The notes beneath the pieces are model-generated. The model had not been told where the DNA came from. It made no database searches and saw nothing but the letters and a program-made list of their open reading frames with translations. Both the position numbers and the translations under genes were made by a program. Shown here one piece after another: positions 1 through 18,424 of a stretch of DNA of 21,797 bases (position 1 is the first letter of the stretch; each line of letters opens with the position of its first letter). This DNA comes from a virus: positions 1 to 21,797 of IMG/VR virus record IMGVR_UViG_3300028925_003701, one strand, 5' to 3'.

Positions 1-605
1 CTCAAGCTTTTCCATTACCTGTAAATGATGAAGTATGCCTTGGAAGGAAGGATACTATAACTGGTGAACTACTTGAAAAGTGTTCAAAGTGTTACGCTGA
101 TAATAGGGGCTTTTATGCTATGCCTGATACTATAAGAGTACGGGAAGATAACTTAAAGATAATCAAAGAGAATATACAAGTATTTATATTTTTTATGATC
201 GGCAAGTTAAACAGAAAGAAGAATAAAGAGTTTCGATGGTTTGATAGTGGAGATATATTCTCAATTGAGTTCTTAAATGGTTTAATTGAAGTATGTAAAA
301 AGACACCTAATACAACACACTGGATACCAACAACTACTTGGAACTACCCAAATAAAGAGTTTTTATCATTATTACAAGTATTGCAAGCTTTACCTAATGT
401 TAGACTAAGAGCTTCAAATAAAGGTAGCATACCAGAACTACCTCAAGGTCTGTATCCTTTACAATCTGTAGTAGTCAAAGAAATAAAGGATAAGAGCACT
501 AAAGAATTATTCTATTGTCCTGCACCTAAACAAGGCGGGAAGTGTAAAAATTGTTCAGCATGCTACAACAAAAACATAATCACAATAGCTTACCTTGAAC
601 ACTAA
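1..605 (+). CDS. Gp88-like Cys-rich phage protein, 5' truncated
   Basis: The reading frame is open from the first bases of the window, so the true start lies upstream; the ATG at 120 is internal. About 200 residues are visible. Near the front is a CSKCYA motif and near the end CPAPKQGGKCKNCSACY, with RWFDSGD in the middle. The C-x2-C-Y-A near the start and a Cys-rich tail are the layout I know from the phage Gp88 domain family first named in actinobacteriophages; its biochemical function is not known to me. The paired cysteines suggest metal binding (inference). It ends 16 bases before the next gene and leads the early run of small genes. It has no T7 counterpart, so it is probably an accessory host-interaction gene. 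Family assignment is fairly likely, function unknown. Confidence 0.7.
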   Translation, partial: QAFPLPVNDEVCLGRKDTITGELLEKCSKCYADNRGFYAMPDTIRVREDNLKIIKENIQVFIFFMIGKLNRKKNKEFRWFDSGDIFSIEFLNGLIEVCKKTPNTTHWIPTTTWNYPNKEFLSLLQVLQALPNVRLRASNKGSIPELPQGLYPLQSVVVKEIKDKSTKELFYCPAPKQGGKCKNCSACYNKNIITIAYLEH

Positions 606-621
606 CTAAAGGATAAACAAA

Positions 622-819
622 ATGAATAACTATAAAAACTTTGATGAATATTTAGAGTGTGAGTATCAAGAACAAAGCAATACTTTAGGTGAATTTTATG
701 AGTGCAATGGTGGTCACTTATGGCATATATCAGATATTAAAAAAGAGTACTACCATATTAAATCAGCTAAAACATTCAACTATGATGAAATGCTTAGAAA
801 GTGTGGTGTAGAACTATGA
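622..819 (+). CDS. Small hypothetical acidic protein (65 aa)
   Basis: This 65-residue protein is not one I recognise. It is rich in Glu, Tyr and Asn (MNNYKNFDEYLECEY at the front), has three cysteines, and shows no signal peptide or membrane segment. An AAAGGA site lies about nine bases before the ATG. Its stop overlaps the ATG of the following 28-codon gene (ATGA at 816-819), which supports both as translated and coupled. The position in the left early cluster of a T7-like phage suggests a host-takeover accessory gene, but that is inferred from location only. Confidence 0.65.
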   Translation: MNNYKNFDEYLECEYQEQSNTLGEFYECNGGHLWHISDIKKEYYHIKSAKTFNYDEMLRKCGVEL

Positions 820-902
820 TAACTAAAATTGACTTAAATACCCTGGTTTTTGCTTGTCTATTTGGTGTACTTATCTGTATACTTATTCTAATATCCTTTT
901 AA
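816..902 (+). CDS. 28-aa single-span membrane miniprotein
   Basis: The ATG at 816 overlaps the TGA of the preceding gene (ATGA), and the frame runs 28 codons to TAA at 900. The peptide begins MITKIDLNTL and continues as an almost unbroken hydrophobic stretch (VFACLFGVLICILILISF), enough for one membrane span with the C-terminus at the membrane face. No known family is evident. Such tiny membrane proteins are common in phage early regions, where some block superinfection or alter the host envelope; nothing here shows which. The translational coupling and the clean hydrophobic profile are the main arguments that it is real. Confidence 0.5.
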   Translation: MITKIDLNTLVFACLFGVLICILILISF

Positions 903-915
903 TAGAGGTAAGACT

Positions 916-1083
916 ATGCTAACAAGTAGAGAGAAACAGATGATTGACCTGGCAGTAGAAACAGCTATTAATAAAGTGAAAAATGATCCTGTATTACTTA
1001 AAGAATGGTTAAATGATATAGATACAATAAACAATCTTAATAAACTAGTCAGAGAAGAAATGAGGCATCAATATGTTGAATGA
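916..1083 (+). CDS. Small helical hypothetical protein (55 aa)
   Basis: The frame from ATG 916 to TGA 1081-1083 codes for 55 residues beginning MLTSREKQMIDLAVE and ending MRHQYVE. An AGAGGTA site sits about six bases upstream. The sequence is charged, without cysteines or hydrophobic spans, and looks predominantly alpha-helical (for example AINKVKNDPVLLKEWLNDI). I recognise no family. It overlaps the next gene by 11 bases in another frame, the tight packing seen throughout this early block. Function unknown; probably a small cytoplasmic phage accessory protein. Confidence 0.55.
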   Translation: MLTSREKQMIDLAVETAINKVKNDPVLLKEWLNDIDTINNLNKLVREEMRHQYVE

Positions 1084-1249
1084 ACTATCACAACTAAGGG
1101 TTAACCTGGATGAATACTACACCAGGATTGATGATTTAAATACATATAAGAAAGAAAAAGCAAAGTGGGACTATTATACTGCTAAACTGTTAATATTTCA
1201 AGTCTACATGACTGATAACCGTAATTTCTACTTAGGTGTTTTAAGCTAA
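1073..1249 (+). CDS. Small hypothetical protein (58 aa)
   Basis: ATG 1073 lies inside the end of the previous gene, with a GAGG site about eight bases upstream, and the frame closes with TAA at 1247-1249 after 58 codons. The product starts MLNELSQLRVNLDEYYTR and is rich in Tyr, Lys and Leu; a helical, possibly coiled-coil segment covers the first two-thirds. It resembles no family I can name. The stop codon overlaps the ATG of a 14-codon micro-ORF (TAATG at 1247-1251). Function unknown. Confidence 0.55.
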   Translation: MLNELSQLRVNLDEYYTRIDDLNTYKKEKAKWDYYTAKLLIFQVYMTDNRNFYLGVLS

Positions 1250-1293
1250 TGAGCTTTGATTTTAGGCTACCAGACAGTAAACCTGTAGGGTAG
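1249..1293 (+). CDS. 14-codon micro-ORF overlapping a hairpin
   Basis: An ATG at 1249 overlaps the preceding TAA (TAATG) and opens 14 codons (MSFDFRLPDSKPVG) ending in TAG at 1291-1293. The second half lies inside the hairpin at 1262-1298, and the stop codon is in its 3' arm. It has no strong Shine-Dalgarno site of its own, so translation would depend on termination-reinitiation. It may be a leader peptide acting on the RNA structure before the zinc-ribbon gene, or a chance ORF. A second 14-codon ORF with the same layout occurs at 2191. Confidence 0.3.
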   Translation: MSFDFRLPDSKPVG

Positions 1294-1298
1294 CTTAA
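1262..1298 (+). other. RNA hairpin in early untranslated segment
   Basis: Bases 1262-1271 (TTAGGCTACC) pair with 1289-1298 (GGTAGCTTAA) through ten pairs including one G-U. A 2x2 internal loop follows, then a 4-bp upper stem (ACAG/CTGT, 1274-1277 with 1283-1286) closed by a 5-base loop. No T-run follows, so this is not a standard intrinsic terminator. It begins a 118-base stretch (1250-1367) that otherwise holds two further hairpins and a ribosome binding site. Role unknown; an RNA processing site or translational control element are options. Confidence 0.55.
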
Positions 1299-1305
1299 GA
1301 TAAGA

Positions 1306-1321
1306 GCTTTAAAGGCAAAGC
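1306..1321 (+). other. Small stem-loop
   Basis: GCTTT (1306-1310) pairs with AAAGC (1317-1321) around a 6-base loop. It is the middle of three consecutive hairpins in the 1250-1367 untranslated stretch. Alone it would be unremarkable; it is listed because the three structures follow one another with gaps of 7 and 8 bases. Confidence 0.35.
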
Positions 1322-1329
1322 AAGGGCTA

Positions 1330-1346
1330 CTCAGAGCCTCTCTGAG
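1330..1346 (+). other. Perfect 7-bp stem-loop before zinc-ribbon gene
   Basis: CTCAGAG (1330-1336) and CTCTGAG (1340-1346) form a perfect 7-bp stem with a 3-base loop (CCT). It ends 21 bases before the ATG at 1368 and about 10 bases before that gene's TAGGAG site. No T-tract follows. It could be an mRNA-stabilising or processing hairpin at the 5' end of the downstream message. Confidence 0.45.
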
Positions 1347-1367
1347 GGTATTACAATAGGAGACACA

Positions 1368-1751
1368 ATGAAATTTAAGCTAAATAAGGTAGGTAAAGCT
1401 AATAACAATCAGTTTGCACCTTATTCACAGATCATCGAGCATATATGGTGTGATAAGTGTAATACTAGGGAAACTTCAAGTATGTCTGTAGGTTATACTC
1501 TACAAGGTATACAGTTCTGGTGTGATAACTGTGATAAGTCTGTACTACACATAGCACTAAATCCAGGTTCATATACGGTTGATCCTAATCCACAAGGCAA
1601 GTTCAATAGACGTAACTTAAGAGCAGGGGAAGAGCGTATGAATGATTATAGTATTACTTCTATGGATTTACTTGAACAGAAGAAAGAAGAAGAGAAGAAC
1701 GACTATGGGTATAACCATAAGATAAGACACAATGCCATATACAGTAGGTAA
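1368..1751 (+). CDS. Zinc-ribbon-like small protein (127 aa)
   Basis: The product has two C-x2-C pairs (CDKC near residue 28 and CDNC near residue 52) separated by about 20 residues of likely beta strands, the pattern of a zinc ribbon. The C-terminal third is charged and helical (LEQKKEEEKNDYGYNHK). A TAGGAG site eight bases upstream and a hairpin just before it mark the start. I recognise no precise family. Small zinc ribbons often bind nucleic acid or a host protein such as RNA polymerase; for this protein that is inference. It stands after a structured untranslated stretch and before a likely regulatory region, so it may be transcribed as its own unit. Confidence 0.65.
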   Translation: MKFKLNKVGKANNNQFAPYSQIIEHIWCDKCNTRETSSMSVGYTLQGIQFWCDNCDKSVLHIALNPGSYTVDPNPQGKFNRRNLRAGEERMNDYSITSMDLLEQKKEEEKNDYGYNHKIRHNAIYSR

Positions 1752-1779
1752 ACTTAAGCAAACAAAGGATAAACTCATA

Positions 1780-1842
1780 TTTTAGTTGAAGTAAGACTCA
1801 TTCCTATATAGTATAACATATAGTATATACTATAAGTCTTAC
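1780..1842 (+). promoter_or_regulatory. AT-rich inverted-repeat control region
   Basis: The 159-base gap 1752-1910 has no credible gene. GTAAGACT (1791-1798) is repeated inverted as AGTCTTAC (1835-1842). Inside, TATAGTAT (1807-1814) pairs with ATACTATA (1827-1834), and 1819-1834 is itself a perfect 16-base palindrome, TATAGTATATACTATA. At 1780-1790 lies TTTTAGTTGAA, an 11-mer found again before the capsid gene (18345-18355). It could be a promoter, an operator or an easily melted replication start. The 3' part also has weak sigma70-like boxes (TAGACA at 1853, TATAGT at 1874, 15-base spacer). Exact role uncertain. Confidence 0.4.
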
Positions 1843-1910
1843 TATAAGTTTTTAGACAAGTAGTAGTAGTTACTATAGTTAATACAATAGGTTAACCAAA
1901 GGAGAACCTT

Positions 1911-2147
1911 ATGACTAACAGGTATAGGATCAATGGTGTATCATCAGATAATGAGCAAGAGAGTAAAATACATGATGTTAAACTAAAGACTTATAATAAG
2001 ATAGGAGAAGTGACTGATTCTATTTATATTTCAGGCTTAAGTCTACATGATGAAGTTTATTCGACTAAGACTAAGCAATTCATGACTATAGATGAGTATC
2101 ATGCAGGTAAGAAGAAGAAGTACCTAAGAAGTCTATTGAATAACTAG
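1911..2147 (+). CDS. Hypothetical protein (78 aa)
   Basis: This protein of 78 residues begins MTNRYRINGVSSDNEQE and ends in a strongly basic tail (AGKKKKYLRSLLNN). The centre (KLKTYNKIGEVTDSIYISG) suggests beta strands. No cysteines, signal peptide or membrane segment are present and I recognise no family. An AAAGGAG site six bases before the ATG fixes the start. It is the first gene after the inverted-repeat region at 1780-1842, so it may be under that region's control. The basic tail could contact nucleic acid or acidic proteins (inference). Confidence 0.6.
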   Translation: MTNRYRINGVSSDNEQESKIHDVKLKTYNKIGEVTDSIYISGLSLHDEVYSTKTKQFMTIDEYHAGKKKKYLRSLLNN

Positions 2148-2190
2148 AGTTGCATTAGTTTTAAATATATGCTATAAAGGAGATGTTTTG

Positions 2191-2235
2191 ATGGTTGTTT
2201 GTCTCTCTCCAGACCCAGGGTTATCTGTAGTTTAG
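2191..2235 (+). CDS. 14-codon leader-like micro-ORF with ideal RBS
   Basis: AAAGGAG at 2176-2182 stands eight bases before ATG 2191, the best-placed ribosome site in this gap. The frame codes for MVVCLSPDPGLSVV and stops at TAG 2233-2235. Its last five sense codons form the 5' arm of the hairpin 2212-2248, and the stop codon straddles the loop and 3' arm. A ribosome reading it would keep the hairpin open, as in leader-peptide control. The next gene (ATG 2262) lacks a clear ribosome site of its own. Whether the peptide matters or only its translation is unknown. Confidence 0.4.
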   Translation: MVVCLSPDPGLSVV

Positions 2236-2248
2236 ATAGCCTTGGGTC
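2212..2248 (+). other. 15-bp hairpin overlapping the micro-ORF stop
   Basis: Bases 2212-2226 (GACCCAGGGTTATCT) pair with 2234-2248 (AGATAGCCTTGGGTC) in an unbroken 15-bp RNA stem with two G-U pairs and a 7-base loop. It is the most stable-looking structure in the early region. The following sequence (ACTTAACTAAACC) is not a T-run, so intrinsic termination is unlikely. It lies 13 bases before the next ATG, where it could affect ribosome access or be cut by RNase III as in T7 early RNA; both are inferences. Confidence 0.6.
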
Positions 2249-2261
2249 ACTTAACTAAACC

Positions 2262-2582
2262 ATGCATGAAATAATTATAACTATAATGCTTATTATTCCA
2301 CCAGCTAGTCAAGGTATATATTGGGATATAGGTGAAGTACATAATCAACTCCAGGTTACCTTTGAGTCCGGTGTAAAGGCCAGCTATTCAGCTATTCAAG
2401 TGCCTTGTCACACTAAGCCTATCAAAGTAGGATGGGCTGTGTATCATACCAAGTCGATAGGACAGGAGACTTGCTACCTCACTGATACTAACTATCCTGT
2501 CATGGTGCGTGGGCCTTGGAGAACTACGATAACAAAGACATTCAAAACTAAAGGAGAACACAATGAGCTACCTACCAAATAA
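2262..2582 (+). CDS. Predicted exported protein with one Cys pair (106 aa)
   Basis: The N-terminus MHEIIITIMLIIPPASQG looks like a short signal peptide or anchor with possible cleavage after Ala-Ser, followed by a likely beta-rich domain with Trp residues and exactly two cysteines (VPCHTK and QETCYL) that could form a disulfide outside the cytoplasm. No clear ribosome site precedes ATG 2262; an in-frame ATG at 2286 would leave a truncated signal. The gene follows the 14-codon micro-ORF and its hairpin, so translation may be coupled or controlled through them. The last 20 bases overlap the next gene. No family recognised; an envelope-acting early phage protein is the likeliest role by context. 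Confidence 0.55.
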   Translation: MHEIIITIMLIIPPASQGIYWDIGEVHNQLQVTFESGVKASYSAIQVPCHTKPIKVGWAVYHTKSIGQETCYLTDTNYPVMVRGPWRTTITKTFKTKGEHNELPTK

Positions 2583-2757
2583 TGAGTGGTACGAGAATCT
2601 ATTTGAGAACTGCAAGTCTAAAAAAGAAGTAGAAGAGAAAGCAGTAGAGATGATTAGATATAGAGATAAAGATAGATATGAATATGAAAATAATGCAGTA
2701 ACTATAGCTCAAGGTCATGCAGCGACAATAGAATCTCTTATCAATCAAATGTACTAG
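2563..2757 (+). CDS. Small charged helical protein (64 aa)
   Basis: ATG 2563 follows an AAAGGAG site with seven bases between, inside the last codons of the preceding gene. The 64-residue product is highly charged and helical (SKKEVEEKAVEMIRYRDKDRYEYE), with one Cys and no membrane segment. A plausible coiled coil spans roughly residues 18-45. I recognise no family. It is the one clearly cytoplasmic member between two predicted exported proteins in this run. Function unknown. Confidence 0.6.
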   Translation: MSYLPNNEWYENLFENCKSKKEVEEKAVEMIRYRDKDRYEYENNAVTIAQGHAATIESLINQMY

Positions 2758-2766
2758 GAGCACACT

Positions 2767-3057
2767 ATGATAGTCTTAGTCACCTTAGCACTTACTACTT
2801 TTAGTTCCTACCTGGTTATGCCTTCATGGTTTGACCACGGCTCCTATAGCCAATACTCCACTCACTCTACCCTAGAAGAGTGTCAGCTAGTCAAGCATGG
2901 TATGGACGCAATCTGCGTAGGTGACTCACCATATCACCTATATGTAAACGATGAAGCAGAAGTAGTAGAAGAGTTTAAGAAAGAGATAGAGTTTACCAAG
3001 TGTGATTACTGGAGTGGTTGTTATTCTCACCGTCCAGTAACAAGGAGTGGACAATGA
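2767..3057 (+). CDS. Predicted exported protein with four Cys (96 aa)
   Basis: The protein opens with a hydrophobic segment (MIVLVTLALTTFSSYLVM), suiting a signal peptide or N-terminal anchor without basic residues. The remainder, about 75 residues, is polar and has four cysteines (LEECQ, DAICVG, TKCDYW, SGCYS) that could make two disulfides in the periplasm. An AGGAG site lies about six bases before the ATG. Its TGA overlaps the ATG of the next gene (ATGA, 3054-3057). I see no known family. Beside two other exported-looking small proteins it may be part of an envelope-modifying or superinfection-blocking set (inference). Confidence 0.55.
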   Translation: MIVLVTLALTTFSSYLVMPSWFDHGSYSQYSTHSTLEECQLVKHGMDAICVGDSPYHLYVNDEAEVVEEFKKEIEFTKCDYWSGCYSHRPVTRSGQ

Positions 3058-3212
3058 GTAAATACCGCTTTAGGATCTTATTTGTGGTGATGTTACTTTC
3101 AATTGTTTCATGGAAAGTATTCATGGAAGCTCCTGCTAAAGTTGTAGATACCACCTGGCACTTTGAGCACTGTACTTCTAACTCATCTACAGACTGTGGA
3201 CGATTAGAATGA
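3054..3212 (+). CDS. Small signal-anchor protein with one Cys pair (52 aa)
   Basis: I place the start at ATG 3054, not the upstream in-frame ATG at 3018, because AAGGAG lies six to seven bases before 3054 and the ATG overlaps the previous stop (ATGA). The 52-residue product has a basic N-terminus (MSKYRFR), a hydrophobic span (ILFVVMLLSIVSWKVFM) and a short polar tail with two cysteines (EHCTSNSSTDCGR). This is the layout of a type II signal-anchor or exported miniprotein with a periplasmic disulfide. It is coupled at its stop to the following membrane-protein gene (ATGA at 3209-3212). No family recognised. Confidence 0.55.
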   Translation: MSKYRFRILFVVMLLSIVSWKVFMEAPAKVVDTTWHFEHCTSNSSTDCGRLE

Positions 3213-3424
3213 TCTGGATTGAGAGCTTTCTATCAGTGTGGGCTTTGATAGCCATACGAATGTTAGCTCAAGGCCACAAGGCTGGCCCTATTGTAGGTTG
3301 GATAGGGCAGGTCTTGTGGGTTTCCATGTGGATATACACCAAGCAGTACGGCTTCATACTAATTGATGTTGGCCTTGGTTATATCTACTTGGAAGCTTAC
3401 TTGAAAGGTAAAAAGAATGCGTAG
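3209..3424 (+). CDS. Small multi-span membrane protein (71 aa)
   Basis: ATG 3209 overlaps the TGA of the previous gene. The product is largely hydrophobic: segments around residues 2-19 (SFLSVWALIAIRML), 27-43 (GPIVGWIGQVLWVSMWI) and 48-62 (FILIDVGLGYIYLEA) suggest two or three membrane spans, with a basic tail (KGKKNA). I cannot assign a family. It resembles a holin only in size and span number, and its early position argues against a lysis role; a membrane partner for the adjacent exported proteins is equally possible. Its last 8 bases overlap the oxygenase gene. Confidence 0.55.
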   Translation: MIWIESFLSVWALIAIRMLAQGHKAGPIVGWIGQVLWVSMWIYTKQYGFILIDVGLGYIYLEAYLKGKKNA

Positions 3425-3947
3425 ACCTATGCAACTCAATCACTACCTAGGAGTCTTCTCTCCTGAAGAGGTAACCAGGATCACAGAACTAGGTGATTCA
3501 TTAGATTTAGTAGAAGGTGCTATATTAGTCAAGGGTAAGGATTCCATAGAGCACAAGAAGAGAAACACTAAGATAGCTTGGGTACATCATACCTTAGACA
3601 CCGCTTGGATATTCACCAGGATGGCTAAGATGTGGATGCTTGAACCTATCTCTATGTTACAATCATTCCAGTACAGTGTGTATCATGTAGGTGGACACTA
3701 TGATTGGCATAGAGATTTAGGGACAGGCGGTGACATCGTGAGTAACAGGGTTATATCAGGTACGCTCCAGTTGAGTGAACCCACAGATCATAAGGGTGGT
3801 CTATTGGAAGTGGAGAATGAGTTCGGGCCTTGTACAGTAGAGAAGGAAAGAGGCATGATCACTTCATTTCCAGCTGGATGGAGACACAGAGTTACACCTG
3901 TTACTCACGGTATTAGAAAGACTTTAGTTATGTGGGGATTACGCTAA
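3417..3947 (+). CDS. 2OG-Fe(II) dioxygenase (P4H/PiuC-type fold)
   Basis: This 176-residue protein has the double-stranded beta-helix signature of 2-oxoglutarate/Fe(II)-dependent oxygenases. The HxD iron ligands are H98 and D100 (DWHRD), the distal ligand is H157 (GWRHRV), and R167 (GIRKTLVMW) fits the 2-oxoglutarate carboxylate. A GGLLEV strand and FPAGW turn also match the prolyl-4-hydroxylase-like subgroup. Such enzymes hydroxylate proteins, nucleic acids or small molecules; this one's substrate is unknown. It lies directly before the RNA polymerase, with its TAA overlapping that gene's ATG (TAATG), so the two are co-expressed early. ATG 3417 follows AAAGGTAAAA; a second ATG at 3429 would remove only four residues. 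Family certain, role open. Confidence 0.88.
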   Translation: MRRPMQLNHYLGVFSPEEVTRITELGDSLDLVEGAILVKGKDSIEHKKRNTKIAWVHHTLDTAWIFTRMAKMWMLEPISMLQSFQYSVYHVGGHYDWHRDLGTGGDIVSNRVISGTLQLSEPTDHKGGLLEVENEFGPCTVEKERGMITSFPAGWRHRVTPVTHGIRKTLVMWGLR

Positions 3948-6349
3948 TGCTCAATAGACAGAAACTACTAGAAGAAGAGATGATAGCCTTAGGAGTCAAG
4001 AGGTATCGTCATGAGAATACTGAGGCTAAGAAGGGTAAGCATGAGTCCACTACTCCTGCGGGTATTCAATTCATTCGTAAAGGTTGCGGTAAGATAGTCA
4101 AGCAATTAGATCAACTCAAGTTAGACTATGCTAAGGGTATACCAGTACAGTGTGAGAAAGAAGTGATGGAGTTAATCACTAACTCTGTGTCTTCTGAGGT
4201 GGTAGCTTTCCTAGCTCTTAAAGCTTGTGTCAATCACTTGTCTACTCCAGTTAAACTAATCAAGGTGGCCCTGGAAGTAGGGTCATTCATAGAAGATGAG
4301 ACAAGGTTCAGAGCCTTTGCTAAAGAAAATGCACCTCTATTTGGTGTAGTAACTAGAGATCTCTCAAAGAGAACTACTAATTACAGGAAACAAAAGAGAG
4401 TACTTGTACACTCAGCTAATAAAGCAGGGATTGAGTGGCATAACTGGTTGACAGCAGATAAGACTAGACTAGGGACACTCTTAGTCAAGATGGTGTGTGA
4501 TGCTACCAAGCTATTTGAGATCAAGAAGCATACCAGTGCTAGTCATAAGAAATTTAAAAAGGTGTACTGGCTAGAAGCTACTGAAGCTTCCCTTAAGTGG
4601 ATAGACAATAAGAATAGTGTGTGTGAGTTGTTGTCTCCTGTTAAGATGCCATGTTTGATCTACCCCAGGAAATGGGAAAGTGTATATGATGGTGGTTACT
4701 ATCAGTATACTAAAATGAATCTTGTTAAATCGTCAGATGCAACATATCTTCAGCAGTTAGATAATACTAATTTGAAGGAGGTGTTCCATGCAACTAATAT
4801 CGTACAAGGGACTGGGTGGAGAATTAACAGTAAGGTCTTTGAGGTTATGGAAGCCTTATATGACAATCAGTCAGTGTGTCAGGTCATCCCAGAGGCAGGA
4901 CAAAGACACATGGAAGAGTCTTACCCTAAGACAGGGACACAGGAAGAGATAATAGAATGGAAAAGAACTGCTACTTTACTTCACAGTGATAATGTCAGAC
5001 GTAAGACCAAGCGTATACAATTCGCTCAACTTATGTGGATGACAAGAAAGTTTAAAGATGAGAAAGCTCTCTATTTCCCTCATACCTTGGACTTTCGTGG
5101 ACGTATGTATGCCAACACAGCCTTCCTCAATCCCCAGGGTGAGGATACCGCAAAAGGCTTGTTGGAATTCTCTACGGGAAAAGCTATGGGTGCTTCAGGA
5201 CTTGCATGGCTCAAGGTACACATCAGCAATTCTTGGGGATTCGATAAAGCATCCTTGGAAGAACGGGTAGAATGGACAGAGAACAATGAGGACATGATCA
5301 TGCGAATAGGCATTGATCCTCTTGGAAGCCGTGAGTGGATGGATGCAGATAAACCTTGGCAATTCCTTAGGTCTTGCTTTGAGTATGTTTGCTGTAACAA
5401 TAATGAGGACTATGTATCTCACTTACCTGTCACGGTAGATGGTAGCTGTAATGGTCTCCAACATTTCTCTGCTATGCTTAGAGATGACATTGGTGGAGCT
5501 GCAACTAATCTTATTAATCATGAGCAACCAGAGGACATCTATGAAATTGTCAGAAGAGAAGCAGAAAACGGAATGGTGCTTGACAATAATCCTGAGTTTC
5601 ATATATGGGGTAGCGGTGGTTGTCTTTCTCGTGCCTTGGTTAAACGCCCAGTAATGACTACTCCGTATGGTGCTACACTATACGGTATGAGAGATCAAAT
5701 ACATGAAGAACTTAAAAAGCAGTTGGACAAAGGAGTGGTATTTCCAGGTATTGATGGTAGTAGTGATATGTGGCCTCATTGTAAATATCTGGCTTTTCAT
5801 ATCTATGAAGCTATTGGAAGAGTTGTTATATCTTCTAGGTTAGGCATGAAGTGGCTACAGGATGTAGCTAAATCCTCTAACAAGTTAAAGAGACCTATAT
5901 ACTGGACACTACCTACAGGGTTTGTAGTTAAACAGAAGTACATTAGGTCAATAGTAAAAGAAATTAAGACTATCATAAATGGACGCATGGCCTCACTCTA
6001 TGCAGGAAGTAGTGATGCTGAGAAGATGCACACATTTAGACAGGTCAATGGTATTGCACCTAACTTTGTTCATAGCTTAGATGCTTGTCACCTTATGAAA
6101 ACTATAGTCAGTGCTAGAGATAATCATGGTATTGAATCTTATGCTGTAGTCCATGACTCTTTTGGTACTCATGCTTGTGACATAGAACAACTAGGTATAG
6201 TGCTCAGAGAAACCTTTGTAGAAATATACAAAGAAGATATACTGAAAAAATTTATGGAAGAGCAGGGGGATCTTGATTTGCCTAGTCTCCCTGAGTATGG
6301 TAAGTTAAATATTGAGGACGTAAAAAATGCAGAATTCTTTTTTAGCTAA
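3947..6349 (+). CDS. T7-like single-subunit DNA-directed RNA polymerase
   Basis: This 800-residue enzyme would transcribe phage middle and late genes from its own promoters. All hallmarks of T7 RNA polymerase are visible: DFRGRMY (from about 382), motif A DGSCNGLQHFSAMLRD with catalytic D498, motif B KRPVMTTPYG with K566 and Y574 (matching T7 K631 and Y639), NFVHSLDACH, and motif C VHDSFG with H736 and D737. The C-terminus ends in FFFS, echoing the aromatic tail of T7. T7's enzyme is 883 residues; the shortening falls mostly in the N-terminal half. I chose ATG 3947 (TAATG overlap, GTGGGGA upstream) over the in-frame ATG 3932, which lacks a site. The specificity-loop region differs from T7, so its promoters should too. 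Confidence 0.96.
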   Translation: MLNRQKLLEEEMIALGVKRYRHENTEAKKGKHESTTPAGIQFIRKGCGKIVKQLDQLKLDYAKGIPVQCEKEVMELITNSVSSEVVAFLALKACVNHLSTPVKLIKVALEVGSFIEDETRFRAFAKENAPLFGVVTRDLSKRTTNYRKQKRVLVHSANKAGIEWHNWLTADKTRLGTLLVKMVCDATKLFEIKKHTSASHKKFKKVYWLEATEASLKWIDNKNSVCELLSPVKMPCLIYPRKWESVYDGGYYQYTKMNLVKSSDATYLQQLDNTNLKEVFHATNIVQGTGWRINSKVFEVMEALYDNQSVCQVIPEAGQRHMEESYPKTGTQEEIIEWKRTATLLHSDNVRRKTKRIQFAQLMWMTRKFKDEKALYFPHTLDFRGRMYANTAFLNPQGEDTAKGLLEFSTGKAMGASGLAWLKVHISNSWGFDKASLEERVEWTENNEDMIMRIGIDPLGSREWMDADKPWQFLRSCFEYVCCNNNEDYVSHLPVTVDGSCNGLQHFSAMLRDDIGGAATNLINHEQPEDIYEIVRREAENGMVLDNNPEFHIWGSGGCLSRALVKRPVMTTPYGATLYGMRDQIHEELKKQLDKGVVFPGIDGSSDMWPHCKYLAFHIYEAIGRVVISSRLGMKWLQDVAKSSNKLKRPIYWTLPTGFVVKQKYIRSIVKEIKTIINGRMASLYAGSSDAEKMHTFRQVNGIAPNFVHSLDACHLMKTIVSARDNHGIESYAVVHDSFGTHACDIEQLGIVLRETFVEIYKEDILKKFMEEQGDLDLPSLPEYGKLNIEDVKNAEFFFS

Positions 6350-6593
6350 TTCAAGTGTAAAGAATGTATCAGCAGGAATGATGGCAGTAGTTGATTCTTT
6401 ACACAACTTTAGTAGGGCAGAAAGACACGCTATTATTCTTAGTGTGTTTAATTGTTTGTATAACAATAAGCTTCAACATAAGTACAGTATCACAGATGTA
6501 ATGATGATGGTTGACACAATGAGAGAAGAGTGCAAACGCACAAAGGTTCCTGAATTTGGGGGAGCAGAACGCTACATCAAAGGAGAATTATAA
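6327..6593 (+). CDS. Hypothetical protein between RNAP and SSB (88 aa)
   Basis: ATG 6327 lies within the last codons of the RNA polymerase gene and the frame ends with TAA at 6591-6593, where its last base is the first base of the SSB ATG (TAATG). The 88-residue product is helical with many Met (SAGMMAVVDSL, DVMMMVDTMREECK) and two cysteines; no membrane segment or known motif is seen. By position it corresponds to the small class II genes between genes 1 and 2.5 of T7, several of which act against host enzymes, but I see no similarity to any of them. Overlaps on both sides support expression. Function unknown. Confidence 0.65.
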   Translation: MQNSFLANSSVKNVSAGMMAVVDSLHNFSRAERHAIILSVFNCLYNNKLQHKYSITDVMMMVDTMREECKRTKVPEFGGAERYIKGEL

Positions 6594-7162
6594 TGGCAAA
6601 GCAGAAGTTTGATACCCATGTATCACCAGCAGGAATTGCGGTATACCCTTGGTTGAACAAAGCAGACACTAAGTTTGATGCTGATGGTGTATTCTCAGTT
6701 AAACTTATCTTTGACAAAGCAGCTACTAAAAAGATTAGTGACATTGTTAAACCCCTGATGAATGGTGGTGCTAACAATCCTATCAAACCTGAGTTAGATG
6801 ATCAGGGTGAAAAGACAGGTCAGTATGTTGCTAACTTTAAGATGAAAGCTCATGTTAAAACTAAAGGTGGCGATGAGTGGGATCAAAAGCCTATCCTGGT
6901 TGACTCTGATGGTAACAGAATGATTGCTGCCATAGGTGGTGGTAGTAAACTCCAAGTACAGTACGAAGCTATCCCTTATGATGCTATGGGTGGTGGTGTT
7001 AGTTTGAGAATGAAGAAGGTAAGAGTCCTTGACCTTGTAGAGTACGAGTCTAAATCTGATAGTACTAACTGGGGTGAAGAAAAGGGTAGCTATGTAGCAC
7101 CTAAAGATGACTTTAAAGTTGCAGAGGAAGCAGTAGATGACGATGAAGAAGAAGATTTCTAA
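6593..7162 (+). CDS. Single-stranded DNA-binding protein (T7 gp2.5-like)
   Basis: This 189-residue protein fits the phage SSB family related to T7 gp2.5, with an OB-fold core covering roughly residues 1-150. Seen are the conserved opening (THVSPAGIAVYPWLNKAD), the SVKLIFDKA strand, the KMKAHVKTK strand and the GGGVSLRMKKVRVLDLV stretch. The tail is strongly acidic and ends in Phe (DDDEEEDF), the feature through which gp2.5 contacts DNA polymerase and helicase. It would coat single-stranded DNA and promote annealing in replication and recombination. AAAGGAG precedes the ATG. The acidic tail's codons overlap the start of the endonuclease I gene, as both are GAA/GAT-rich there. Confidence 0.92.
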   Translation: MAKQKFDTHVSPAGIAVYPWLNKADTKFDADGVFSVKLIFDKAATKKISDIVKPLMNGGANNPIKPELDDQGEKTGQYVANFKMKAHVKTKGGDEWDQKPILVDSDGNRMIAAIGGGSKLQVQYEAIPYDAMGGGVSLRMKKVRVLDLVEYESKSDSTNWGEEKGSYVAPKDDFKVAEEAVDDDEEEDF

Positions 7163-7568
7163 GAGCCAGATGAAGAGGGGTATGATAGAAGGGTATCGTT
7201 CAGGTCTTGAGTGTTCAGTAGGAGCACAACTTAACTCTGCCAAAGTTAGGTGGGAGTATGAGTCTGAACGTATCCCTTTTACTCCTAAGAAGAGAACTTA
7301 TACACCTGATTTTATTATCAAAGGTCAGGCAGTAAAGATATATATAGAAACGAAGGGTAGGTTCCTTGGATCAGACAGGTCTAAACACCTTCTGGTCAAG
7401 GAACAACACCCTGAGTTAGATATAAGATTTGTCTTCACTAACCCAGATCAAAAACTATACAAGGGAGCAAAGACGACTTATGGAGACTGGTGTACAAAGC
7501 ATGGATTTAGCTTTTCCAAAGGAAGCGTACCGGACAGTTGGATCAGAGAGTGTCTGCCTAAGGCATGA
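7137..7568 (+). CDS. Endonuclease I, Holliday-junction resolvase (T7 gp3-like)
   Basis: This 143-residue nuclease matches T7 endonuclease I along its length. Catalytic residues align: E25 (RSGLE), E40, D58 (YTPDF), E71 and K73 (IETKG), corresponding to T7 E20, E35, D55, E65 and K67. KHLLVKEQHPELDIRFVF and LYKGAKTTYGDWC are close to the T7 sequence. It resolves branched DNA before packaging and helps break host DNA to recycle nucleotides. ATG 7137 has GAGGAAG six bases upstream, inside the SSB acidic tail; ATG 7143 is a weaker alternative. The 3' end overlaps the start of primase-helicase, and no T7 gene 3.5 (lysozyme) homologue stands between them. Confidence 0.95.
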   Translation: MTMKKKISKSQMKRGMIEGYRSGLECSVGAQLNSAKVRWEYESERIPFTPKKRTYTPDFIIKGQAVKIYIETKGRFLGSDRSKHLLVKEQHPELDIRFVFTNPDQKLYKGAKTTYGDWCTKHGFSFSKGSVPDSWIRECLPKA

Positions 7569-14971: not shown

Positions 14972-15229
14972 GTGTTAAACCTATTGACTGTCCTTATGTG
15001 TGGGGGAGCACCAAGTATTCCACCGCCACCCCCACCGCCCCCTCCACCTCCTCCTCCCCCACCCCCTCCCAGTCCTCCAGCCCCGATTGCTACTGTCGCT
15101 GCCTCTGCTAAGAGTCCTTCAGAAAAAGCAACCACCAAGGCTAAGACTAGGACATCAAGGAGAGCTACAGGGAAGTCTAGGTTTAGAACCCTTGGTTCAA
15201 GTGGGCCTACTGGATTGAATATAGGTTAG
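14972..15229 (+). CDS. Polyproline protein, T7 gp7.3-like tail/virion protein
   Basis: The product has a short hydrophobic front (MLNLLTVLM), CGGAPSI, then 17 consecutive prolines (residues 17-33, bases 15020-15070), and a basic Ser/Thr/Lys tail ending GPTGLNIG. The tail resembles the end of T7 gp7.3 (KKSLSVARSSGGGINI), a tail-assembly protein found in the virion; with the location before portal this supports the call. I use GTG 14972 because AGGAGA is correctly spaced before it. An in-frame ATG at 14996 would give MCGGAPSI, possibly the true mature start. A proline run this long would need host EF-P to translate. Moderate certainty on role, high on coding. Confidence 0.65.
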   Translation: MLNLLTVLMCGGAPSIPPPPPPPPPPPPPPPPPSPPAPIATVAASAKSPSEKATTKAKTRTSRRATGKSRFRTLGSSGPTGLNIG

Positions 15230-17533: not shown

Positions 17534-18287
17534 GAACGTCCAGTCAGACATGAGTGTAGAAGAGTCACACAATCAAGATATGATTGACTTGGTTGAAGAG
17601 AAAGAGATCGTCCCACCAGGGATGGAACCTCAGGATAAGTTTGGTGGTGACTACAATAAACTCATGGAAAGCTATCAGCAACTAGAACAGAAATTAGGTA
17701 AACCACAAGAGGAAGAGTATGTAGCTGAAGAGTCAGACCTTAGTATACCTCAGGCTCCTGATGTAGCTGAAGGTGCATTCGATATGGCTGTTCTCCAACA
17801 GGAGTACATGACTAATGGTGCTCTAGGAGAAAACAGTTATAAGCAACTAGAAGATGCAGGTATCAGTAGACAGTATGCTGATACATACATTGCAGGAGTC
17901 AAAGCATTAGGTGAACAGATTGGTAACAATGTGAAGTCTTCTGTAGGTGGTGATGCTGAGTACAGTAACATGGTTGAGTGGGCTAAGGCTAACTATAACC
18001 AAGATCAAATTCAAGCTTACGATAAGGCTGTTAATAGTGGAGATGTTAATACTGCTATTATGGCAGCTAAAGGTTTACGGTCTGATTATACCAACACAGC
18101 TGGTAGTGAAGGCACGACTTATGGAGGCACACAAGCGGAACCTGAGGGTTCTGAACAAGTCTTTAGGTCTAATGCTGAAGTAACTGCTGCGATGAAAGAC
18201 AAACGGTATGAGTATGATACTGCTTATAGGCAGGATGTACTTAAGAAATTAGACCGATCAGATATTTTCTCTCAAGGGAGACTATAA
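17511..18287 (+). CDS. Capsid assembly scaffolding protein (T7 gp9-like)
   Basis: I start the gene at ATG 17511, with GGAGAG five bases upstream; the in-frame ATG 17424 would add residues with no family character. The 258-residue product is acidic (MSVEESHNQDMIDLVEEKE), with helical central segments (YMTNGALGENSYKQLEDAG) and a C-terminus, KDKRYEYDTAYRQDV, matching the conserved end of T7-like scaffolds that touches the capsid protein. Scaffold guides procapsid formation and then leaves. T7 gp9 is about 307 residues, so this one is shorter. It stands directly before the capsid gene, as in T7. Confidence 0.9.
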   Translation: MANQLTVENVQSDMSVEESHNQDMIDLVEEKEIVPPGMEPQDKFGGDYNKLMESYQQLEQKLGKPQEEEYVAEESDLSIPQAPDVAEGAFDMAVLQQEYMTNGALGENSYKQLEDAGISRQYADTYIAGVKALGEQIGNNVKSSVGGDAEYSNMVEWAKANYNQDQIQAYDKAVNSGDVNTAIMAAKGLRSDYTNTAGSEGTTYGGTQAEPEGSEQVFRSNAEVTAAMKDKRYEYDTAYRQDVLKKLDRSDIFSQGRL

Positions 18288-18344
18288 GTAGTACCCGCTA
18301 TCAAGTATTAAACAAGTAAACAAAAGCCAGCTGCGGTTGATAAC

Positions 18345-18394
18345 TTTTAGTTGAAAGTTAAAGAAAAGTATAGCTATTATGTTAGATACTTTTT
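18345..18394 (+). promoter_or_regulatory. Putative promoter and hairpin before capsid
   Basis: The 137-base gap 18288-18424 carries TTTTAGTTGAA (18345-18355), identical to 1780-1790. TTGAAA (18351-18356) and TATTAT (18375-18380), 18 bases apart, resemble sigma70 boxes. AAAAGTAT (18364-18371) pairs with ATACTTTT (18386-18393), giving an A-rich/T-rich hairpin followed by one more T. AACTTT and AAAGTT (18343-18359) form a second small inverted repeat. T7 has a strong phage promoter before its capsid gene, so a promoter is expected here. Which of these signals is used cannot be settled by reading. Confidence 0.35.
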
Positions 18395-18424
18395 ATCAAT
18401 TAATTAAAAAACTAGGAGAATAGT

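Follow-up and report, generated by a model that had tools for sequence, protein, structure and literature searches.

Positions 2149–2252 of the DNA analysed here, a 21,797-base virus record of a T7-like phage (the window), probably form one module, a host-type early promoter followed by a structured leader RNA that acts in cis. The supposed mini-gene within this stretch has the look of a regulatory RNA element and not of a coding sequence for a very small protein, judging from its comparison with related sequences. We infer that host RNA polymerase would start near 2185 and that the helix of the leader would begin at about +28 of the early mRNA, acting as RNA and not through the 14-codon peptide that overlaps it; the operon controlled in this way would lead to the phage RNA polymerase gene. 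The features of the window on which the argument turns are as follows.

2150–2155, + strand, predicted -35 element TTGCAT (TTGCA is invariant in 8/8 aligned elements)
2168–2178, + strand, predicted extended -10 element, TATG at 2168–2171 and TATAAA at 2173–2178 (TATGnTA is invariant in 8/8)
2176–2182, + strand, AAAGGAG, putative ribosome site that overlaps the -10 box and the discriminator
2185–2210, + strand, leader strand GTTTTGATGGTTGTTTGTCTCTCTCC, nearly invariant in relatives
2191–2235, + strand, micro-ORF of 14 codons (MVVCLSPDPGLSVV) followed by TAG at 2233–2235
2212–2248, + strand, 16-pair RNA hairpin with arms 2212–2227 and 2233–2248 and a loop of 5 nt
2262–2582, + strand, first gene after the leader (gene 2262), 106 aa, without a Shine-Dalgarno (SD) core
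3947–6349, single-subunit RNA polymerase gene (Pfam RNA_pol, E 3.4e-109)
7137–7568, endonuclease I gene

No DNA-level match to the window was found in 50,697 phage records. The phage records related to it through the polymerase (n = 2593) all had <60% identity, LUZ100 (35.2%) being the best of those listed. The Rfam covariance models gave no match at the gathering score in the whole window, and a relaxed Rfam search of 1200–2300 gave a single match (1776–1864, E 3.2) that lies outside the element; a tRNA or a known RNA family was dropped as its identity, as the searches of the window offered no supporting match. We also found no description of the promoter-leader element in the literature searched, which covered few subscription papers. 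Elsewhere in the record, a 2OG-Fe(II) oxygenase gene (3417–3947, Pfam E 2.8e-11) lies directly 5' of the RNA polymerase gene, an ORF at the left end (120–605) matches Pfam GP88 (E 1.5e-15), and the ORF at 14972–15229 encodes a long unbroken proline run.

Relatives were collected as 18 loci from the product of gene 2262 and 22 loci from the polymerase. The module, ∼105 nt long, is present in the window and in eight other IMG/VR contigs of the same T7-like clade, and these provide eight distinct sequences with the window included (L046 and L051 are identical over the stretch compared); seven elements are complete and one (L047) is truncated because its contig ends within the 3' arm. A covariance model built from five sequences without the window found the window at 2149–2252 with 67.6 bits. 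All seven contigs with a polymerase identity of at least 83% and at least 2.7 kb of DNA upstream of the polymerase gene carry the element (L020, L022, L024, L026, L028, L030 and L033); L025 and L027 have 1.3 and 1.0 kb upstream, and the other contigs at or above 83% start at or in the polymerase gene. The distant relatives L034 and L032 (59–61% polymerase identity, 6.0 and 2.6 kb upstream) gave no model match up to E 10, and the best match in a distant relative was that in L031 (18 bits, E 0.23). When 10 whole records were searched with the model, eight gave one strong match each and two gave none; all other matches in these records were at most 23 bits, four of them being the same stem on the opposite strand. 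Forty-seven stretches from a scan of genome contigs, which were judged by eye and not scored with the model, appeared to be chance matches, none of them having the promoter block in the 75 bases upstream. By eye, the element was also absent from 3 of 11 viral stretches (L045, L049 and L050), and 12 further stretches searched with the model gave one match of 10.6 bits (E 4.5).

The module always precedes the RNA polymerase gene, at a distance of ∼1.4 to 2.8 kb, while the neighbouring genes change. The nearest upstream ORF encodes 78 aa in the window, 76 aa in L018 and L020, 155 aa in L022 and L033, 75 aa in L007 and 25 aa in L030 (no upstream ORF is covered for L026); in L018 and L020 it ends inside the element, and coding may add to the conservation of the element there. 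The first downstream ORF is gene 2262 in the window and in L018, an ORF of 76 aa in L020 and of 82 aa in L022 and L033, and a hydrophobic ORF of 24–27 aa in L007, L026 and L030. The product of gene 2262 had no match in PHROGs or Pfam. The first-pass annotation had noted that this gene lacks a clear ribosome site, and our comparison confirms it: the SD core is absent from the start of gene 2262 in 18/18 orthologues checked (the window and 17 others; L009, with too little upstream DNA, was left out), and it is present at 21 of the 26 window gene starts checked (a listed position, 17507, that is not a start codon was omitted). No copy of the element was found in the available DNA of 12 of these 18 orthologues. 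The start without an SD core thus occurs whether the element is there or not, and it belongs to gene 2262 itself and is not tied to the micro-ORF or to the leader.

In the window, TTGCAT and TATAAA are separated by a spacer of 17 nt and, together with TATG, are predicted to form a σ70-like extended -10 promoter, from which transcription would begin near 2185. GTTGCA, GTTTTA and TATGnTA are common to all aligned elements without exception, and the strict promoter pattern occurs once in the window compared to 0.07 times per random window. The -35 element of the window agrees with the consensus at three of six positions and the -10 hexamer does not end in T in any element; it reads TAATAA in L026, L044 and L047 and TAGTAA in L048, so that it is weaker in four of the eight sequences. 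A relaxed pattern that covers TAATAA and TAGTAA occurs five times in the window (2.47 expected), and a generic σ70 scan of the window did not list the site and returned 17 promoters where 21.6 were expected, i.e. no excess. L005 (5960–6003) and L006 (64–107), in which the model did not find the promoter-leader element, have TGGACT, 17 nt and TACTAT with TATG directly before the 2262 orthologue, as read by eye. This sequence fits the presence of a promoter at this place more widely, and, given its short distance to the ATG of the 2262 orthologue, the mRNA could be leaderless.

The promoter and the leader up to the stem are 0.85–0.93 identical to the window (five of seven comparisons listed), which is higher than the identity at four-fold sites of the polymerase gene on the same contigs (0.65–0.81). 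Within this stretch, the purine tract and CUCUCUCC are candidates for a first hairpin, which forms in six of seven single folds with a pairing that differs between elements. Pairing of CUCUCUCC with the SD of the next gene was dropped, being possible only where this SD reads AGGAGA (L020, L022 and L033); in these three contigs the AGGAGA is placed behind the stem, not inside it.

The stem itself begins 1 nt (window) or 2 nt (other elements) after CTCTCTCC. It had been described as an unbroken 15-bp hairpin, which is correct for the RNA (16 pairs, three of them G-U) and incorrect for the DNA, where the 15-nt arms 2212–2226 and 2234–2248 are 87% complementary. The folding z-score was -4.23 for 2148–2300 and -5.28 for 2179–2262, with 0/200 shuffles as stable in each case, and this is the only perfect stem of at least 15 pairs (G-U allowed, loop 3–10) on either strand of the whole window. 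A single stem would not be decisive, because 5 of 60 first-order random windows contain at least one perfect 15-pair stem; what decides is its recurrence in 7/7 complete elements, with 15 pairs in L046 and L026 and 16 in the others, two or three of them G-U in each. The loops of these seven elements measure 4, 4, 5, 6, 6, 7 and 46 nt and differ in their letters. The longest, in L044 (192–268), amounts to a natural insertion experiment, since all 16 pairs are kept despite the growth of the loop to 46 nt. When the arms are swapped between elements, 4–10 of the 14 outer pairs form, except for L044 with L048 (12–13 pairs) and for L043, L046 and L026, which share the stem (14 pairs). The alignment of five sequences that leaves out the window has two-sided changes at 8 of 14 pairs, and pairing is kept in 69 of its 70 cells; slid structures have at most two pairs with such changes. 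On four of five covariation measures 0/500 shuffles scored as high, and on the fifth 18/500 did; such shuffles can be beaten by related sequences without structure, and more weight rests on the slid controls and on the fact that every complete element has a perfect stem. Taken together, these comparisons show that the helix is kept as an RNA structure while its sequence is free.

A DNA palindrome for a repressor was rejected because of the G-U pairs and the variable arms, and a lambda-type nut boxB because of the loops of 4–46 nt with differing letters. An intrinsic terminator was likewise rejected, as the terminator scan did not contain this site and the window continues with ACTTAACT after the stem; a run of six T's, 4 nt behind the stem, exists only in L044 and L048.

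The micro-ORF was the starting point of the first-pass annotation, and in the window it reads as claimed, with AAAGGAG at 2176–2182, 8 nt, ATG at 2191 and 14 codons up to TAG at 2233–2235. AGGAG-N4-9-ATG occurs at 17 sites on the + strand of the window, of which, by our own sorting against the predicted genes, 11 are gene starts and 6 (the micro-ORF among them) are not, so that a ribosome site with an ATG is weak evidence when taken alone. AAAGGAG is present only in the window, the relatives reading AAGAGAG or AGAGAGA at the same place; its AAA is also part of the -10 box, and transcription beginning near 2185, as inferred, would start downstream of its GGAG. All eight distinct element sequences have the ATG, which opens MV[FV]VSLL in seven of them. 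The exception is the window, where an extra T puts the invariant CTCTCTCC in a different frame from the other seven. The ORFs of the eight sequences comprise 9, 9, 9, 11, 13, 14, 17 and 17 codons, with their stops (that of the window included) scattered over stem positions 7 to 31. Codons 1–7 of the seven MV[FV]VSLL sequences contain one replacement (L043) and zero synonymous changes, so it is the letters, not the peptide, that appear to be kept. The distance from the ATG to the stem is 21 nt in 8/8 sequences (with the stem start assumed for the truncated L047), and the window keeps it because an insertion ahead of CTCTCTCC is offset by a deletion behind it; these compensating indels are a single event, yet they would fit a role of the ribosome at the AUG. 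The comparison with relatives, proposed earlier as a check, therefore bears out a start codon and a stem that recur in all element-bearing relatives, but not a ribosome site, a frame or a stop that are conserved. The peptide is probably not the conserved function of 2191–2235.

The comparison has weakened control by a leader peptide, in which ribosomes loaded at AAAGGAG would reach or stall in the stem and open it for the next gene, and we consider it unlikely. It accounts for the good ribosome site and ATG in the window, for the kept ATG, MV[FV]VSLL and 21-nt spacing, and for the stops, none of which precedes stem position 7, so the 5' arm would be covered by a ribosome terminating there. However, the ribosome site is confined to the window, whose frame is shifted, the first seven codons lack synonymous changes, and an RNA starting near 2185 would exclude the ribosome site altogether. 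A frame and a stop conserved among relatives would be expected of such an attenuator and were not found, and the hairpin does not hide a ribosome site of gene 2262, as the SD core is missing from all 18 orthologues, whether or not they have the element. Like erm-type attenuators, as far as the source extracts describe them (PMC11264731), the element has a short ORF that enters a stem upstream of a gene; unlike in these, conservation does not extend here to the frame, the stop or a hidden ribosome site. About as improbable is that TTTTAAATATATGCTATAA is a promoter of the phage's own RNA polymerase with its start at the purine tract 2177–2179, where the leader would begin with GGAGA, able to pair with UCUCC as the first hairpin. 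The hairpin in six of seven folds favours this, as does CTATA followed by a purine run, which we take to resemble T7-type promoters; against it, the purine-tract pairing differs between elements and the invariant GTTGCA lies beyond what is presumably the usual reach of such polymerases. Moreover, there is no second copy in the window (the best other score is 6.5 bits versus 24.7), no repeated promoter-like family is seen among the 20 listed of at least 60 repeat families, and this promoter was set back as the main reading for want of a second copy. The consulted portion of the LUZ100 report describes three σ70-like early promoters and a phage promoter directly upstream of the polymerase gene, the latter favouring a phage-polymerase promoter here as well (PMC10134795). 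LUZ100 and the window are alike in having host-type promoters, predicted in the case of the window, in the early part of a genome that encodes a single-subunit polymerase; a conserved structured leader is, in contrast, not mentioned in that portion of the source (PMC10134795).

A special case of the preferred module is a put-like RNA, through which host polymerase would ignore the terminators of the early operon: a protein-free antiterminator, with the invariant strand and the 16-pair helix giving read-through to the phage polymerase gene. We give it a low probability. In HK022, putL lies just downstream of PL and consists of two stem-loops with bulges (PMC9378689, from the sections available). 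As with putL, an invariant strand and a structured RNA stand in cis directly behind an early-type phage promoter, which is here a predicted one; unlike putL, whose two bulged stem-loops depend on important sequence according to the same sections, the element has one firm, bulge-free helix of free sequence (PMC9378689). In addition, the first stem is inconsistent between elements, and a terminator scan of 1–6500 on both strands gave 3 compared to 2.9 expected, no excess to be overcome. Finally, RBS-like ATGs do occur elsewhere in the window and a few random windows hold a 15-pair stem, but the view that these are chance features of an intergenic gap is contradicted by conservation and covariation over eight distinct sequences, and we regard it as extremely improbable.

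Within the preferred reading of a host-type promoter with a structured leader, we tentatively place foremost that the helix together with the invariant strand defines or shields the 5' end of the early operon mRNA, through RNase III-type cutting or as a stabiliser, because a helix with no constraint on its sequence or loop suits something that recognises double-stranded RNA or stability. A long helix with little dependence on loop or sequence, a trait of RNase III sites, is what the elements have (15–16 pairs, free sequence). RNase III does not need an invariant strand, however, and 16 pairs are short for this enzyme, both of which count against the module; so does the fixed 21-nt distance, which would fit a ribosome role, where the leader is held to act as RNA only. 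The invariant strand and the fixed distance of the AUG are why we keep two further modes in view, a gate on translation initiation at the conserved AUG or behind it, which is possible at a clearly lower probability, and put-like antitermination, which is somewhat less probable still; a small remainder falls to some other mode of action. In phage T7, helical hairpins between early genes serve as RNase III processing sites. The element shares with them a helical hairpin ahead of an early gene of a T7-like phage and differs in the invariant leader strand and the promoter attached to it and in its perfect stem of only 15–16 pairs.

A second structured intergenic RNA lies in the same early region, at 1250–1367 of the window, ahead of gene 1368. 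It consists of an interrupted 26-pair helix with the loop AAAAC or TAAAC, followed by a 7-pair hairpin, and has counterparts in L007 (303–430), L018 (4600–4730), L020 (1930–2055) and L022 (2639–2768). The five-sequence fold has two-sided changes at 7 of its 33 pairs, and in L018 some pairs of the second hairpin are broken; an RNase III-type site is a possible role for this RNA. Ahead of the capsid gene, the leader (18287–18424 in the window, and L099–L103) is likewise conserved outside coding sequence in 6/6 aligned sequences, with an AAAGTAT/ATACTTT inverted repeat, read from the sequence, and then T's.

In this uncultured T7-like clade, a predicted early promoter is thus coupled to a leader RNA that is conserved and covaries, and neither Rfam nor the phage DNA records gave a match to the element. 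If it acts on host polymerase, on mRNA decay or on ribosomes, it would add an RNA layer to the step at which the phage polymerase is produced.
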